NCBI GenBank assembly: GCA_002007315.1
Contig: LNZQ01000164.1
Span: 1-37,697 of the forward strand
Length of the DNA stretch: 37,697 nt
Source of the DNA: Epulopiscium sp. Nele67-Bin004
GTDB lineage: Bacteria > Bacillota_A > Clostridia > Lachnospirales > Cellulosilyticaceae
Reading direction: 5' to 3'
Below, piece by piece: positions 5,014 to 11,291 of the stretch. The notes under the pieces are model-generated. The model was not told where the DNA came from, made no database searches, and saw only the letters and a program-made list of their open reading frames with translations. Made by a program: the position numbers and the translations under genes. Each line of letters opens with the position of its first letter. The first letter of the stretch is position 1.

Positions 5014-5154
5014 TTTGTCCAAAACAACATCTTATGAAAATATTACCTTGCAGGGGATAATAATAAACATTATAATTAACTATAAATACAATTTGATGTG
5101 AAAGGGCTTGAGGAGTTTGTGAGCTTGTTAGGTGGGCAGAAATAGATAAAAAAA
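5014..5154. other. Gene-poor AT-rich stretch with a short coding-like remnant
   Basis: No complete gene is present. From 5095 a plus-strand frame reads DVKGLEEFVSLLGGQK before a TAG at 5143-5145. This looks like a natural protein tail, but an in-frame stop lies only a few codons upstream (TAA at 5083-5085). It may be the relic of a gene lost when mobile elements inserted here. No family assigned. Confidence 0.3.
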
Positions 5155-5192
5155 CACTGGAAAACGAGAAATTTCGTTATCCAGTATTTTTT
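5155..5192 (-). terminator. Hairpin terminator, probably of the transposase remnant
   Basis: ACTGGA (5156-5161) pairs with TCCAGT (5180-5185), and after one mismatch AAACGA continues pairing with TCGTT(T), giving a stem of about 12 bp. A-runs on the left and T-runs on the right make it usable in both directions. On the minus strand it follows the stop codon of the transposase relic at once. Confidence 0.75.
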
Positions 5193-5275
5193 AGTTGGTG
5201 CTGTCGTTTATTTTTAAATATTTTTTGTCGTGTAATAAGCCATAGAAAATTCTAATCATTTGGTTCATAATATAG
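5191..5275 (-). pseudogene. C-terminal remnant of a transposase, probably IS110 family
   Basis: The minus strand reads YIMNQMIRIFYGLLHDKKYL, then KINDSTN and TAA at 5193-5191. The basic-hydrophobic pattern (MNQMIRIFYGLLHDKK) resembles the last helix of IS110-type transposases. Nothing upstream belongs to it, because the reading frame runs straight into the end hairpin of the iscB element. The rest of the gene is absent from both sides of that element, so this was not a simple clean insertion. Family assignment rests on a short stretch and is tentative. Confidence 0.45.
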
Positions 5276-5284
5276 GCAAGGAGA

Positions 5285-5304
5285 CACGTCACTTTAGTGA
5301 TGTG
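5285..5304. repeat. Subterminal hairpin at the iscB 3' end of the element
   Basis: CACGTCACT / AGTGATGTG forms a 9-bp stem with one G-T pair and a two-base TT apex. Positions 5287-5302 are identical to 6789-6804 at the other end. Confidence 0.8.
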
Positions 5305-5328
5305 AGGAATTGCCCCTTTTTCTCCTTG

Positions 5329-6561
5329 CTACCTCCTCTCTAATAATAAACTTCTTCTTAAACCTATTAATTTTAACTTCCTATAACTTGCACTTTTGTG
5401 AATGCTTATACCATCTAAAGTTCTTATGTCAAAATATCCTGTACTTCTTCTTCCAAATATAAATCCTTCCTTTCCCACATACTCCACCTTATCAAATAAT
5501 CTAAATTCTTTTACCTCATAGGGGGCTTGATTTAACTTCTTTTTACCACCCTTTAGAATGTTTGCTTTGTGTATCTGTCTATTATTTTTTCTCACTTGTT
5601 TGACAAAATACCAACATTCCAACGATTTTGCTAATGGATTACCACTAATACAGCGTGCATCTACTCTATGACTTTTTTCTAGTCCAGATTGTATTCTAGT
5701 ATTTTTAGTAATATATCCATATGTTAGGCTAACATTTGAATACTGTAACTTTAATCTATTATAAAAACTCCATCGCATTATTCCCATAAAAGTTGCATCT
5801 TTAAAACTCATACCCCTTTTAATAGTCTTCGGTAGTTTGACTGTACCATTATGATAACCATTATGGCAAGTTTCACATAGTGTGATCAAATTATTCGGTG
5901 CATCTCCACCAGTCTTTCTACTTTCAATATGATGTACATTTAGGATTTTGTCTTTCTTTTTGCCCTTACAACATTGACAAGTATGACTATCTCTGAATAA
6001 TACATATTCCCTTACATTCCAAAAATCTAGTTGCTCTCCTTGTTGGTATTCAATCCCTTGTATGTCTGGGTTTTTAATTTTCTGAATATCAAAGCTTGCC
6101 ACTTCTACAATTATTTTACTAATGGGCAATATCTTATGAGCATTTTCTATACATCTTAAATGAGTAGCTATCTTATGCTCTATACTTGGTGCTAACCAAC
6201 CTTTATTTTTACTTCTTACTCTATTTAAAAATCTAGGTTTTCGGTATCTAAGTCTATTTCTTCTAGTACGTCTATTTTGCCTACGAGTTGATAGTAAGTC
6301 TACAATATCAGTTCTTAATTGTATTTCTGATGAATATAACTCACTCTTTTCAGTAGTAGCCGATAAACCAATATTTTTAGAACCAGCATCTACTCCTAAA
6401 GTAATTTCTTGCTTGTATCCACTACTACCGTATAACAATTGTATAGTAAATGGTTCTCTTTTTACTACTTTTGCTTTCTTTTCTTCTAGTAATTTTCTAG
6501 CTTTTCGTGGTTTGCATGGCATTAATGGTTTTCCATCTTTGTTTAATACATATACTAACAT
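5329..6561 (-). CDS. iscB: IscB RNA-guided HNH/RuvC nuclease
   Basis: A 410-residue IscB, the ancestor-type relative of Cas9 that cleaves DNA guided by an omega (HEARO) RNA. Domains in order: PLMP domain (PLMP at 12-15), RuvC-I with D58 in GVDAGSKNIGLS, arginine-rich bridge helix (93-108), RuvC-II with E153 in IIVEVASF, HNH with H210/H211 in NVHHIESR and zinc cysteines C195/C198 and C229/C232, RuvC-III with H298 and D301 in KSHRVDA, and a C-terminal TAM-interacting domain (about 320-400) with FRLFDKVEY and FGRRSTGYFDIR. All catalytic residues are present, so it looks active. The ATG at 6561 is preceded by AAGGAG. It is the only gene of its mobile element. Confidence 0.95.
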   Translation of the reverse strand: MLVYVLNKDGKPLMPCKPRKARKLLEEKKAKVVKREPFTIQLLYGSSGYKQEITLGVDAGSKNIGLSATTEKSELYSSEIQLRTDIVDLLSTRRQNRRTRRNRLRYRKPRFLNRVRSKNKGWLAPSIEHKIATHLRCIENAHKILPISKIIVEVASFDIQKIKNPDIQGIEYQQGEQLDFWNVREYVLFRDSHTCQCCKGKKKDKILNVHHIESRKTGGDAPNNLITLCETCHNGYHNGTVKLPKTIKRGMSFKDATFMGIMRWSFYNRLKLQYSNVSLTYGYITKNTRIQSGLEKSHRVDARCISGNPLAKSLECWYFVKQVRKNNRQIHKANILKGGKKKLNQAPYEVKEFRLFDKVEYVGKEGFIFGRRSTGYFDIRTLDGISIHKSASYRKLKLIGLRRSLLLERR

Positions 6562-6592
6562 CTAGCATATCACTCCTTTTAAAATTCAAAAT

Positions 6593-6812
6593 TAGTGTTA
6601 GTTATCCTTCGACAATGTTATAGTAGCTTTTAGGTAAAACCTACAAATCAGGTTGACTTCTCCTACCCTCAGAGATGTTTACAGTGCCTGCATAGAGCCT
6701 AGAACTAGGATAAATATTCTAGGGTATGATAACTATAATAACGTAGTAATTTAATACTTAGTCTAATCAATAAAGGCTTTTTCAAGCCCGTCACTTTAGT
6801 GATGGGTTATTG
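6593..6812 (-). ncRNA. HEARO / omega RNA partner of IscB
   Basis: About 220 bases between the element's 5' hairpin and iscB have no reading frame but are rich in pairing. On the minus strand the order is the CCCATCAC/GTGACGGG hairpin (6787-6806), GGCTT-GAAA-AAGCC just after it, and several further helices towards iscB, for example GGTTTTACC near 6630-6640. Position, length and context match HEARO RNAs, the guide RNAs encoded directly upstream of iscB. In this family the guide is the flanking sequence at the RNA 5' end, here reading in from above 6812. Exact RNA ends are not determinable by eye. Confidence 0.8.
6787..6806. repeat. Subterminal hairpin at the 5' (RNA) end of the iscB element
   Basis: CCCGTCACT / AGTGATGGG forms a 9-bp stem with one G-T pair. 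It shares CGTCACTTTAGTGATG exactly with the hairpin at the other end, and it would lie near the 5' end of the omega RNA. Confidence 0.8.
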
Positions 6813-6814
6813 AC

Positions 6815-6847
6815 TTCTCGTTTTCCTAAACTTTATCTAGGCGAGAA
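6815..6847 (-). terminator. Hairpin downstream of polC, probable terminator
   Basis: TTCTCG (6815-6820) pairs with CGAGAA (6842-6847), and inside it CCTA (6825-6828) with TAGG (6838-6841). It lies 62 bases past the polC stop. No T-run follows on the minus strand; instead the iscB element begins, which could have inserted at the terminator's T-run. Confidence 0.45.
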
Positions 6848-6908: not shown

Positions 6909-9900
6909 TTATCCCAACAAATCCATAATACTTATTTGGTTAGACTCTGGAATATCTCCAAGAAGTCCAAATTCACTCATTTTATCAGTAATAGTTTGAC
7001 TTACTTTTGTTCGTTTTCTAAAATCATCTTTTGATAAAAACGGTCCATCTTTTACTGCACTAACTACCGACTCCGCTGCCTTTTCACCAAGCCCTTCAAT
7101 TACTCCTAGCGACGGCATAATTTTATTATCAATAATTTGAAAGTTTTTGTCGTGCACAACTGTCAAATCTATTGGCAAAAATTCAAACCCTCTAGCATAC
7201 ATTTCCTGTACAATTCTCATATCTTTAAGCGTATCTTGCTCTTTTGCCGTCTGCATATCTTTAGGCTTACTTGAAATTGCCTTCATATTGTCCTCAAGTT
7301 GCCTTTTACCAAAGCACATAGTATCATATGAAAATGACGATGCACGTATACTAAAAAATGCGGTATAATACGCAAGCGGCCAAAACACCTTATACCAAGC
7401 GATACGCCAAGCCATCATAACATACGCCGCAGCATGTGCCTTAGGGAACATATACTTGATTTTTTTGCAAGACCATACATACCAATCTGGCACATCATTT
7501 GCTATCATTTCTTCTTCCCATTCTGGCGTTAGTCCCTTACCTTTTCGGACACTTTCCATAATAGTAAACGCAAGCCCTTTTTCAAGCCCTTTACCAATAA
7601 GATAAGTCATAATATCATCACGAGTACAAATAACTGTCGAGATAGTCCCCTTGCCTTCTTCTATAAGCGTTTGCGCATTTCCAATCCAAACGTCTGTACC
7701 ATGAGAAAGCCCCGATATCCGCACCAAGTCCGAGAAATTTTGCGGTTTTGCATCAACAAGCATCTGAATAACAAAGTCTGTTCCAAACTCTGGTACACCA
7801 AGTGATCCAAGTCTTATACCACCTATATCATCTGGCGTAATCCCCAGAACTTCTGTTCCATGAAACAATTTCATAACGTCTTTATCGTCAAGCCTAATTG
7901 TATCTGAGGATATCCCTGTTATATCTTCAAGTCGCCTTATAATAGTAGGGTCGTCGTGCCCTAGTATATCAAGTTTTAGCAAGTTGTGGTCTATAGAGTG
8001 ATACTCATAATGCGTCGTTATAATCGGAGTATGGACATCATTTGCGGGACGTTGTATCGCACAAAATTCATAAATTTCCCTGTCATGCGGCACAACAATT
8101 ATACCCCCAGGGTGTTGCCCTGTTGTACGTTTGACACCTGTACAGCCTGCTGCAAGTCGTTTCATTTCTGCCTTTCGCTTGCTAAGTGCTCGTGTTTCGC
8201 AATATTTTAGAACATACACAAACGCAGTCTTATCGGCAACCGTTCCTATCGTTCCTGCTCGGTACGCCTTTCCTTCCCCAAACAACACCTCCACATATTT
8301 ATGTGATGCCGCTTGATATTCACCCGAAAAGTTTAGGTCAATATCTGGCTCTTTATCACCTTTAAATCCTAAAAATGTTTCAAACGGAATGTCATGTCCT
8401 TCCTTATTAAGGGGAGTGCCACATTTTGGACAATCTGCATCTGGCATATCGCACCCAGAGCTACCCGCAAACGATTTTACAACTTCCGAATCAAAATCTG
8501 TATAAAAACAGCTTGGACAAATATAGTGCGGTGCAAGCGGATTAACTTCAGTTATCCCTGACATAGTTGCAGCAAACGAAGAACCTACCGAGCCCCTAGA
8601 CCCAACCAAATACCCGTGGTCATTTGAGTCCCAAACAAGTTTTTGTGATATAATATACATCACTGCAAAGCCGTTGTTAATAATCGAATTTAGTTCTCTT
8701 TCAAGCCGTTCAACAACAACTTCATGAAGATTTGGGCCATATATTTCATGTGCTTTATCATAACAAATTTGTCTAAGTTCCACATCAGAATTTTCTATTT
8801 CTGGCGGACATTTATCAGGCAAAACGGGCGATATTTTTTCTATCTCGTCGGCAATAGCCCTAGTGTTCGTAACAACAACTTCATATGCTTTATCTTGCCC
8901 CAAATACGCAAATTCTTCAAGCATTTCATTAGTCGTCCTAAAATATAATGGTGGCTGAAAATCTGCATCTTTAAAGCCTTTATATGACATAATAATTCGG
9001 CGATACACCTCATCTTCAGGGTTCATAAAATGTACATCACATGTCGCAACTACACGTTTGTTATACTTTTCACCAAGGCTAATTATTTGGCGATTGTATT
9101 CCCTCAAGTCTTCTCTTGAAGTAGCTTTATGTTTTTCGCTACGTATCATAAACTCATTGTTTAGCTCAGGCTGAATTTCCAAATAATCATAAAATGAAAC
9201 TAGCTTTTGCATTTCAACCTCATCTTTTTCACGCATAATTCCTTGAAAAATTTCGCCAGCCTCACACGCAGACCCCAAAATTAATCCCTCACGATATTTT
9301 TGTATCAAGCTTTTTGGCATGCGTGGACGTCTATTAAAATAATCTAAATGTGATATAGACACAAGTCTATTTAAGTTTATTCGCCCCACCTCATTTTTGA
9401 CCAAAATTATACCATGATACGTCGGCAACTTTTTGATGTAATCTGGAGATGCATCACACAGTTTGTTAAGGTCTGTAAGCGTATAAATTTCTTGTTGTTT
9501 AAGTCGCTCACAAAATTTCAAAAATATATCACTTGTCGCTTTTGCATCATCAACTGCACGGTGATGATTTTCTAGTGATACCCCTAGTTTTTTTGCGATA
9601 TTTCCAAGTTTTGCATTTCCAAGGTCTGGCAACAACGTTCTAGCAATCGCTACTGTATCAACGACTGTTTTTTGTACATCAAGCCCGATAGCCTTTGCAT
9701 TTGAATATATAAAGCTCATATCAAATTCAGCGTTGTGTGCCACCATAACCACCCCCTCACAAAATTGCAAAAACTCTGGCAATACTGTTTCTATACTTGG
9801 AGCATTTTTGACATAGTCATCTGTAATTTTTGTTAGCTCAACTATATTTTTAGGTATTTCACAATGCGGATTGACAAATGTGCTGTACGCATCAACAACT

Positions 9901-11291
9901 TTCCCACCCACAATTTTTACAGCACCAATTTCAATTATTTTGTTCGTTGTTGGGCTAAACCCTGTCGTTTCTATATCAAACACGACAAACTCATCGTCTA
10001 GCGATTGCCCTTTGTCATTTTCAACCGCATGCTTTAAGTCATCAACAAAATACGCCTCAACTCCATAAATAATTTTAAATGGGTCGTCTTTTTTGATACA
10101 GTGGTTCGCTATCGGAAACGCCTGCAAACAACCATGGTCAGTTATTGCAACTGCTGGCATTCCCCAAGCTTTTGCACGAGAAATCATCTCTTTTATGTCA
10201 ACAACGCTGTCCATATCACTCATTTTTGTATGAAGATGCAGTTCAACACGTTTTTCTTCTGCTGTGTCTTCTCTAACAGACCTAAAATCAGGAATAATAC
10301 GAATTCCACGTATTGAGTTTAGGGCAATTTCTTTATCAAACTTATCTAGTGTGGCAACACCTTTAACTTTATAAAACTTGCCTTTTTGTAGCTGTGATAA
10401 AATTTCAGCCAAATCTGCATTTTCCACAAAAAGCTTAAATGTAATTGTATCTGTAAAGTCTGTTATGTCACATATAATAATAGTTTTTTCTGACCTGATT
10501 TCACGTGTTTCCATTGCGATAATTTGCCCTTGAACGCACACCTCACCAATTTCATCAACTATATGATATATTTCTATCACATCACCTTCACAGTTTCGTC
10601 CATATATAAGCCCCTCAGTATTAACTTTTTGACGTGGTTTTCTTTCTGGCTGTTGTGGACGTGAATTGAAGTTGTCAAGCTGATCCATCGGCTTTTGTTT
10701 TGGTTTTGCTGTTTGACTTGCTTGTTGTGCTTGTGATTTTGCCATATAAACTTTAAGCTTTTGTGTTTCATCAAAGTTTTCATCTGTTATATCGCTAAGT
10801 TGTAATGTGCAGTTTATTTGCTTATTAAATCGCTGTTTATATAATTTGCTAATATAAAGTTTTATATCACCAAAAGACTTTTCTAATAATGGATTATTTG
10901 CATTTTTAATAATAAGTGTATCGTTACTAATTTCCCAATCAGAATTTTTTAATAACAAATAATACATTAGTTCATTATCTTGAAGTTCATCAACTATACT
11001 TTCTTTGTATTCGGTAGTTATACGCTCAACCGAATAATCTTCATCTAGTGCATACGATATATTAAAATCTATTTTTACTTCGGCTGTATTAAATAGCTTA
11101 GTTTTTATTTGTTCACGCATTTTCTTTTTGCTATAGTAAGGTAATAAGTTTGGACTTTCTATATTAAAAACTAATTTATTTGATGCCTTTTGAAATTCAA
11201 CTTCATTTATTGTAGATGGTGCGAACAACTTGTGTAGATTTTTTTCTACAACTAAATCTGGCAACACCTCAAAAAACGCTTTTGTACTCAA
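6909..11291 (-). CDS. polC: DNA polymerase III PolC-type, alpha subunit with proofreading exonuclease
   Basis: The replicative polymerase of low-GC Gram-positives, 1460 residues (B. subtilis PolC is about 1437). Order: N-terminal domains (1-200), Q/P/K-rich linker, OB fold (about 230-330), PHP part with ELHLHTKMSD (from 350), inserted DEDDh exonuclease with FDIETTGF (D439) to HHRAVDDAKA, second PHP part, zinc cysteines in CPSCFYTD/CPKCGTP, palm with PDIDLNFSG (D983, D985), TGQHPGG, fingers and C-terminal helix-hairpin region. Start is TTG at 11291, supported by AGGAAGGGG seven bases upstream. It acts in the cytoplasmic replisome. Intact, with nothing missing. Confidence 0.97.
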   Translation of the reverse strand: MSTKAFFEVLPDLVVEKNLHKLFAPSTINEVEFQKASNKLVFNIESPNLLPYYSKKKMREQIKTKLFNTAEVKIDFNISYALDEDYSVERITTEYKESIVDELQDNELMYYLLLKNSDWEISNDTLIIKNANNPLLEKSFGDIKLYISKLYKQRFNKQINCTLQLSDITDENFDETQKLKVYMAKSQAQQASQTAKPKQKPMDQLDNFNSRPQQPERKPRQKVNTEGLIYGRNCEGDVIEIYHIVDEIGEVCVQGQIIAMETREIRSEKTIIICDITDFTDTITFKLFVENADLAEILSQLQKGKFYKVKGVATLDKFDKEIALNSIRGIRIIPDFRSVREDTAEEKRVELHLHTKMSDMDSVVDIKEMISRAKAWGMPAVAITDHGCLQAFPIANHCIKKDDPFKIIYGVEAYFVDDLKHAVENDKGQSLDDEFVVFDIETTGFSPTTNKIIEIGAVKIVGGKVVDAYSTFVNPHCEIPKNIVELTKITDDYVKNAPSIETVLPEFLQFCEGVVMVAHNAEFDMSFIYSNAKAIGLDVQKTVVDTVAIARTLLPDLGNAKLGNIAKKLGVSLENHHRAVDDAKATSDIFLKFCERLKQQEIYTLTDLNKLCDASPDYIKKLPTYHGIILVKNEVGRINLNRLVSISHLDYFNRRPRMPKSLIQKYREGLILGSACEAGEIFQGIMREKDEVEMQKLVSFYDYLEIQPELNNEFMIRSEKHKATSREDLREYNRQIISLGEKYNKRVVATCDVHFMNPEDEVYRRIIMSYKGFKDADFQPPLYFRTTNEMLEEFAYLGQDKAYEVVVTNTRAIADEIEKISPVLPDKCPPEIENSDVELRQICYDKAHEIYGPNLHEVVVERLERELNSIINNGFAVMYIISQKLVWDSNDHGYLVGSRGSVGSSFAATMSGITEVNPLAPHYICPSCFYTDFDSEVVKSFAGSSGCDMPDADCPKCGTPLNKEGHDIPFETFLGFKGDKEPDIDLNFSGEYQAASHKYVEVLFGEGKAYRAGTIGTVADKTAFVYVLKYCETRALSKRKAEMKRLAAGCTGVKRTTGQHPGGIIVVPHDREIYEFCAIQRPANDVHTPIITTHYEYHSIDHNLLKLDILGHDDPTIIRRLEDITGISSDTIRLDDKDVMKLFHGTEVLGITPDDIGGIRLGSLGVPEFGTDFVIQMLVDAKPQNFSDLVRISGLSHGTDVWIGNAQTLIEEGKGTISTVICTRDDIMTYLIGKGLEKGLAFTIMESVRKGKGLTPEWEEEMIANDVPDWYVWSCKKIKYMFPKAHAAAYVMMAWRIAWYKVFWPLAYYTAFFSIRASSFSYDTMCFGKRQLEDNMKAISSKPKDMQTAKEQDTLKDMRIVQEMYARGFEFLPIDLTVVHDKNFQIIDNKIMPSLGVIEGLGEKAAESVVSAVKDGPFLSKDDFRKRTKVSQTITDKMSEFGLLGDIPESNQISIMDLLG

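Follow-up and report, generated by a model that had tools for sequence, protein, structure and literature searches.

An intact iscB gene with its HEARO/omega RNA downstream of polC in Epulopiscium sp. Nele67-Bin004, and related elements at host start codons

We report that a 37,697-nucleotide stretch of DNA from Epulopiscium sp. Nele67-Bin004 (contig LNZQ01000164.1; the whole stretch analysed is referred to as the window) carries what is, on its sequence, an ordinary intact IscB locus: IscB and its omega RNA are intact and tnpA is not visible, which confirms the initial annotation in these respects. Specifically, our data suggest, with a probability of roughly 0.8, that the locus is a non-autonomous IS200/IS605-type element that encodes an OMEGA RNA-guided nuclease, takes its guide from the host flank and is moved by TnpA in trans. 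The locus belongs to a known kind because IscB loci rarely adjoin tnpA; according to a passage in PMC9755519, few HEARO nucleases are associated with TnpA. In relatives of the element, the ATGA that follows the right end is in many cases a host gene's start codon, and we propose how a hairpin at this end might bear on the translation of that gene.

The iscB gene and its omega RNA

The predicted 410-residue protein matches the NCBIfam family guided_IscB (NF040563) with 385.6 bits (cut-off 175), and Pfam assigns it RRXRR (225.8 bits) and HNH (35.6 bits; cut-off 21.4). A search of the minus strand with the HEARO covariance model (RF02033), which the initial annotation had suggested as a check, gave a match at 6814-6597 of 129.2 bits (gathering score 83; E = 1.1e-26) that covers model positions 1-211, i.e., the whole length. 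The RuvC and HNH residues read as preserved from the translation are indeed in place, since D58 (in LGVDAGSKNIG), E153 (IIVEVASFD), H298/D301 (KSHRVDARC) and the HH of VHHIE align to their counterparts in IscB proteins of solved structure. The locus thereby resembles the IscB/OMEGA systems (HEARO nucleases; OgeuIscB and others in the PDB), with a PLMP motif close to the N terminus, an HNH that splits RuvC, the HEARO RNA directly upstream and a target-type motif at the far end. Among PDB IscB chains the best match has an E-value of 7.8e-47; unlike the closest of them, which comprise 495-496 residues, the window protein has 410, and in the alignment its residues 2-110 correspond to chain residues 3-113 and its residues 103-341 to chain residues 144-393, so that the chain is some 30-40 residues longer at this point.

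Homologues of the window IscB are very common (at least 7999 at E 1e-3), and a 96% identical IscB is present in another public contig (P0002). By its sequence the host of the window is close to a family that includes Eubacterium oxidoreducens and Lachnospiraceae MAGs. In that family, IscB at E ≤ 1e-150 was found in only 4 of the 397 genomes sampled, so the distribution is patchy; G016, G012 and G023 belong to the family of G119. A 65% identical IscB (L006) is encoded on a contig of a Methanobrevibacter MAG, which reflects either transfer or a binning error. Moreover, tandem pairs of iscB genes, close together and in the same direction, occur at L028 (G018 C22:468522-470645) and L157 (G481 C4:7601-10517).

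Limits of the element and its neighbours

The limits of the element were drawn from its relatives as the points between conserved interior and diverging exterior, using 56 IscB-relative loci taken from genome contigs. Where a left end is detectable in these loci, the sequences diverge outside GTCAA and are alike from its G inwards, and the HEARO start given by Rfam coincides with the projected left-end base in all eight relatives scanned; at the right end the sequences are alike through the hairpin and a further 5-10 nt, followed by ATGA, and diverge beyond it. These shared limits place the window element at 5269-6814 with its ATGA at 5268-5265, which refines the first estimate of about 1.5 kb (Table 1). 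Both end hairpins, each reported earlier to hold a 16-base repeat, are preserved, and the repeat is exact and in the same orientation in the two (5287-5302 and 6789-6804). Subterminal hairpins in the same orientation are a trait of IS200/IS605 that the window element has, and a Y1 transposase of its own is one that it lacks, iscB being its sole gene; judged from these sequence features it is a non-autonomous IS200/IS605 relative, not a complete IS.

Table 1. Features of the window element and its immediate surroundings (positions in the window)
Feature	Position	Strand	Remarks
iscB element	5269-6814	minus	1546 bp; first base of HEARO (GTCAA) to last base before ATGA
Presumed guide	6815-6834	minus	Host sequence beside the left end, transcribed as the 5' part of the omega RNA; placed as in known IscB
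HEARO/omega RNA scaffold	6597-6814	minus	Rfam RF02033
Left-end hairpin, CCCATCACTAAAGTGACGGG	6787-6806	minus	Within the omega RNA
AGGAG before iscB	6573-6577	minus	Presumed iscB ribosome site, from sequence
iscB CDS	5329-6561	minus	410 aa
AGGAG after iscB stop, 5' of right-end hairpin	5322-5326	minus	Proposed hairpin-bridged Shine-Dalgarno motif
Right-end hairpin	5275-5314	minus	Outer stem GGCAA/TTGCC plus inner hairpin; resembles TnpA left ends on the other strand
ATGA at right end	5265-5268	minus	Presumed TAM; complement of TCAT in the TnpA target
polC	6909-11291	minus	NCBIfam PRK00448, 1743 bits; co-directional, upstream of the element
Terminator-like hairpin and T run	5147-5186	minus	Downstream of the element; from the fold

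The element lies between polC, whose stop codon is 94 nt upstream, and the terminator-like hairpin, and is oriented as polC. Those neighbours in the window that match a family are ordinary metabolic, transport and cell-wall genes.

Ends shared with tnpA/tnpB elements and movement in trans

No transposase family was found in the 37 of 55 window ORFs that were scanned (some with Pfam only, some with NCBIfam only), in agreement with the earlier remark that the element has no transposase of its own; the other 18 ORFs overlap scanned ones in different frames. Evidence on how such an element might move comes from Duodenibacillus massiliensis (G018), whose IscB is 61% identical to that of the window. 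Its genome holds 28 iscB matches, many of them fragments, and six tnpA+tnpB elements that are 98.5-99.6% alike. For each of the two genes one copy was checked: tnpA (L069) scored 152 bits against the IS200/IS605 transposase model (cut-off 55), and tnpB (L084) 78.5 bits against Pfam Cas12f1-like_TNB and 40.4 bits against OrfB_IS605. The right end of one iscB element (L018, reverse complement) is identical to the left end of the tnpA/tnpB element L073 at 55 of 55 nt, including the TTCAT target, and among other copies the same two ends gave 51-nt matches of 88-100%. The opposite ends are also alike, with hairpin-GTTTAC in the tnpA/tnpB elements and hairpin-GTTGAC in the iscB elements (common form hairpin-GTTKAC). 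Since the ends are shared, one TnpA should act on both kinds of element in this species. Broken iscB remnants lie beside full-length copies in this genome, an observation that points to long-lasting activity.

L018 sits between lepA and lepB (LepA was confirmed), and in 21 of the 66 other genomes of the D. massiliensis family one alignment spans the insertion point; the ATG is present in all four of these empty sites that were inspected. This one relative thus shows insertion beside a short target with no duplication, which by analogy probably applies to the window element too. The search for an empty site of the window element in a closer relative was given up, as the best PolC match among the 397 genomes drawn (G498; 75% over the last 459 residues) is too distant; the polC 3' flanks of L197-L199 looked unrelated by eye, with L194-L196 left out.

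Compared with TnpA left ends, the right end of the window element gave scores of 46 (G031/L107, whose junction is uncertain), 41 (G008/L109) and 41 (G019/L075), the maximum among 2100 shuffles being 29. These TnpA ends are from other genomes, namely two Solobacterium MAGs and one Sutterella. A pairing of iscB and TnpA ends within the same genome was rejected as a general rule: among 16 genomes in which an iscB right end could be compared with sampled TnpA ends (35 regions upstream of TnpA, which do not cover every copy), the ends of the same genome ranked first in only two. A TnpA match was absent from 3 of the 32 genomes of relatives, many of which are MAGs, and in a fourth none exceeded the cut-off.

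The initial annotation had left it at either mobilisation in trans or retention for some other role. The end identity between iscB and tnpA/tnpB elements in the multi-copy relative favours the former, and by extension from that species the window copy is probably mobilised in trans. Retention by the host for regulation or defence, in an element no longer mobile, strikes us as highly improbable, because the transposon ends and the target motif are intact, the family-matched neighbours are of the ordinary kinds named above and the relatives occupy many different places; what speaks for a host role is that no tnpA is seen and that the element is placed directly after polC. A stranded copy, with intact genes in an immobile element and an idle nuclease, is an unlikely reading. 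It would fit the facts that the window has only one copy and no visible TnpA and that the distribution within the family is patchy, but the ORF, the omega RNA and both ends are intact, and the nearly identical IscB in P0002 also argues against it.

Proposed working of the element

The element mobilised in trans might work as follows. Read-through from polC would give an RNA in which roughly 16-20 nt of flanking host sequence come first and act as guide, the length of guides in known IscB, and which continues through the HEARO scaffold into the iscB mRNA; the polC transcript would include both guide and omega RNA. The promoter must be that of the host because the guide lies outside the element, in the host sequence that precedes it. 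The nearest upstream ORF, polC in the window, is co-directional in 37 of 51 elements, which supports read-through without being decisive. IscB with its omega RNA would then cut the flank where it is followed by ATGA, i.e., the site without the element, and repair from the element-bearing copy would keep or restore the element, so that cutting would favour the allele that has it. This homing step is taken from the known behaviour of IscB-class elements. Movement to other sites would need a Y1 TnpA in trans, supplied, presumably in the host of the window, by an element whose ends are of the same kind.

Motifs such as ATGA or GTGA beside HEARO elements are reportedly described in the early work of Weinberg (2009), Kapitonov (2015) and Altae-Tran (2021). 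The nickase relative IsrB has no HNH domain, unlike the window IscB, in which Pfam finds one. For IsrB, a passage in PMC9581776 gives a target motif of NTGA or NTGG, which the motif of the window element resembles, and by analogy IscB may read the ATGA at the right junction as its target motif. Among 53 junctions the motif is ATGA in 47, the window included, ATGG in five and ATGT in one (L012). The ATGG junctions (L021, L029, L118, L153 and L156) belong to iscB elements of the Sutterellaceae group and may be compared with the NTGG of one published IsrB.

The window element and the IS200/IS605 elements with tnpA and tnpB have in common the end hairpins in the same orientation, the TTCAT target and the hairpin-GTTKAC form of the other end, and in one other genome a tnpA/tnpB element and an iscB element have an identical end. 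Unlike these, the window element has no tnpA, its iscB reads towards what would be the left end of TnpA elements, and iscB right ends carry a Shine-Dalgarno motif that is absent from four clusters of TnpA ends.

As a separate observation, the 12 guide-proximal bases GGAAAACGAGAA (minus strand, 6815-6826) recur exactly, inverted, in the downstream terminator hairpin (plus strand, 5159-5170). Including the guide itself there are two matches in the window, with 0.10 expected, and the second copy precedes ATTT, not ATGA.

Relatives at host start codons

Of the 26 junctions in a first set, 22 begin an ORF of at least 50 codons, as compared with 33% of 2245 control ATGA sites, and 15 have a Shine-Dalgarno motif in the left flank within 18 nt of the element, against 10.6% of the same controls; for L012 the ATGA 15 nt further on was used. 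The enlarged set of 53 junctions was obtained from 72 junction rows by removing 11 TnpA-type ends and eight iscB rows in which the left end was missing or N runs occurred. Here 28 of 53 junctions are start-like (an ORF of at least 60 codons together with a short upstream frame), compared with 365 of 3912 controls (p ~1e-15), and the left-flank motif is found in 22 of 53 against 421 of 3912 (p ~8e-9), where the p-values treat junctions as independent although a single genome (G018) accounts for 17 of the 53, as separate insertions of few lineages. By ORF length alone the counts are 37 of 53 and 1328 of 3912.

As classified by position, 29 junctions are starts, 19 fall inside an ORF and five are non-coding; several of the 19 resemble gene-caller errors and were left as called. 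A fairer control considers only junctions outside gene interiors, and of these 29 of 34 are starts, compared with 150 of 350 non-coding ATG[AG] sites (p = 4e-7). Ten of the downstream ORFs were scanned and nine gave a family match at E 1e-10 or better, most of them from the first few residues. Six exceed the curated cut-off (SerC, NtrC, a heavy-metal ATPase, a diphosphatase, LolC/E and signal peptidase I), and three are below it (YhbY, a histidinol-phosphatase-like protein and a PHP protein). In D. massiliensis, ORFs of at least 60 codons follow 15 of 17 iscB ends and two of seven TnpA-type ends (p = 0.009), one of the seven, beside L031, being recognised by its end sequence only; over all genomes such ORFs follow 5 of 11 TnpA-type ends.

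The window copy is not at the start of a gene, although it has the AGGAG and the hairpin parts discussed below. The ORF that follows its ATGA has 25 codons, and the copy therefore looks like an insertion into a 3'-UTR and not like one at a start codon.

No description of IscB insertion at start codons was recognised in the literature searched, which did not cover the early key papers. The "start codon" passage of PMC13180657 is about gene calling and the Shine-Dalgarno passages of PMC9581776 are about the ribosome site of IsrB itself.

The right-end hairpin and a Shine-Dalgarno motif

Outer and inner stem of the right-end hairpin are backed by two-sided changes among relatives: 85% of cells are paired and 117 cells have double changes, in an alignment of 30 of 35 end sequences (L012, L016, L038, L052 and L020, with longer or shifted ends, were left out). 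None of 500 shuffles reaches the observed value in four of five measures, and 83 do so for the count of pairs with double changes; slid controls gave 31-41% paired. Such covariation is expected of a TnpA end and is by itself no proof of a role as RNA.

Just before the outer stem, a Shine-Dalgarno motif (duplex energy with the anti-Shine-Dalgarno sequence of -7 or lower) is present in 24 of 36 clusters of iscB ends and in none of four clusters of TnpA ends; 3.9% of 5980 random 20-mers reach the same threshold. Two elements in which the end motif was not located (L151 and L029, the latter with a decayed motif) are not included in the cluster count. The Shine-Dalgarno motif is absent from the ends of L122, L123, L132 and L029. 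With the hairpin skipped, the motif lies a median of 9 nt (range 5-17 nt) from the ATG, as measured in the 21 aligned ends, out of 30, that bear it. In 31 of 35 cases no more than 70 nt separate the end of the iscB stop codon from the host A (extremes -145 and +4), and in L035, L053 and L009 the stop codon overlaps the ATGA.

On the basis of these sequence patterns we propose a hairpin-bridged ribosome site at iscB right ends. A wider reading, to which we would give even odds, is that this IscB clade is built for host start codons: the ATGA of the start would be the target, the guide would come from the promoter and 5' leader of the host, and the transposition hairpin would be reused to bring an element-borne Shine-Dalgarno motif to the host ATG. 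The interrupted host gene would still be translated, coupled to iscB. If true, an RNA-guided nuclease would here be combined with a device for benign insertion. No promoter within the element can drive the omega RNA because this RNA begins with host sequence. The start-codon niche with its built-in ribosome site would account for expression of the guide, and also for the tolerance of insertion before genes such as lepB, lolC/E and serC.

The bias towards start codons might also arise without any special device, if selection clears insertions within genes and the ATGA sites that remain are often starts anyway, a reading that we regard as possible and hold only tentatively. The proportion of starts among non-coding control sites (150 of 350) is in keeping with it, as is the presence of ORFs after 5 of 11 TnpA-side ends, and across elements the strength of the motif does not predict the position at a start codon (p = 0.34). 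However, the excess of starts among junctions outside gene interiors goes beyond that control, TnpA-type ends in D. massiliensis do not share the preference of the iscB ends in the same genome, and the four clusters of TnpA ends lack the Shine-Dalgarno motif that iscB right ends carry.
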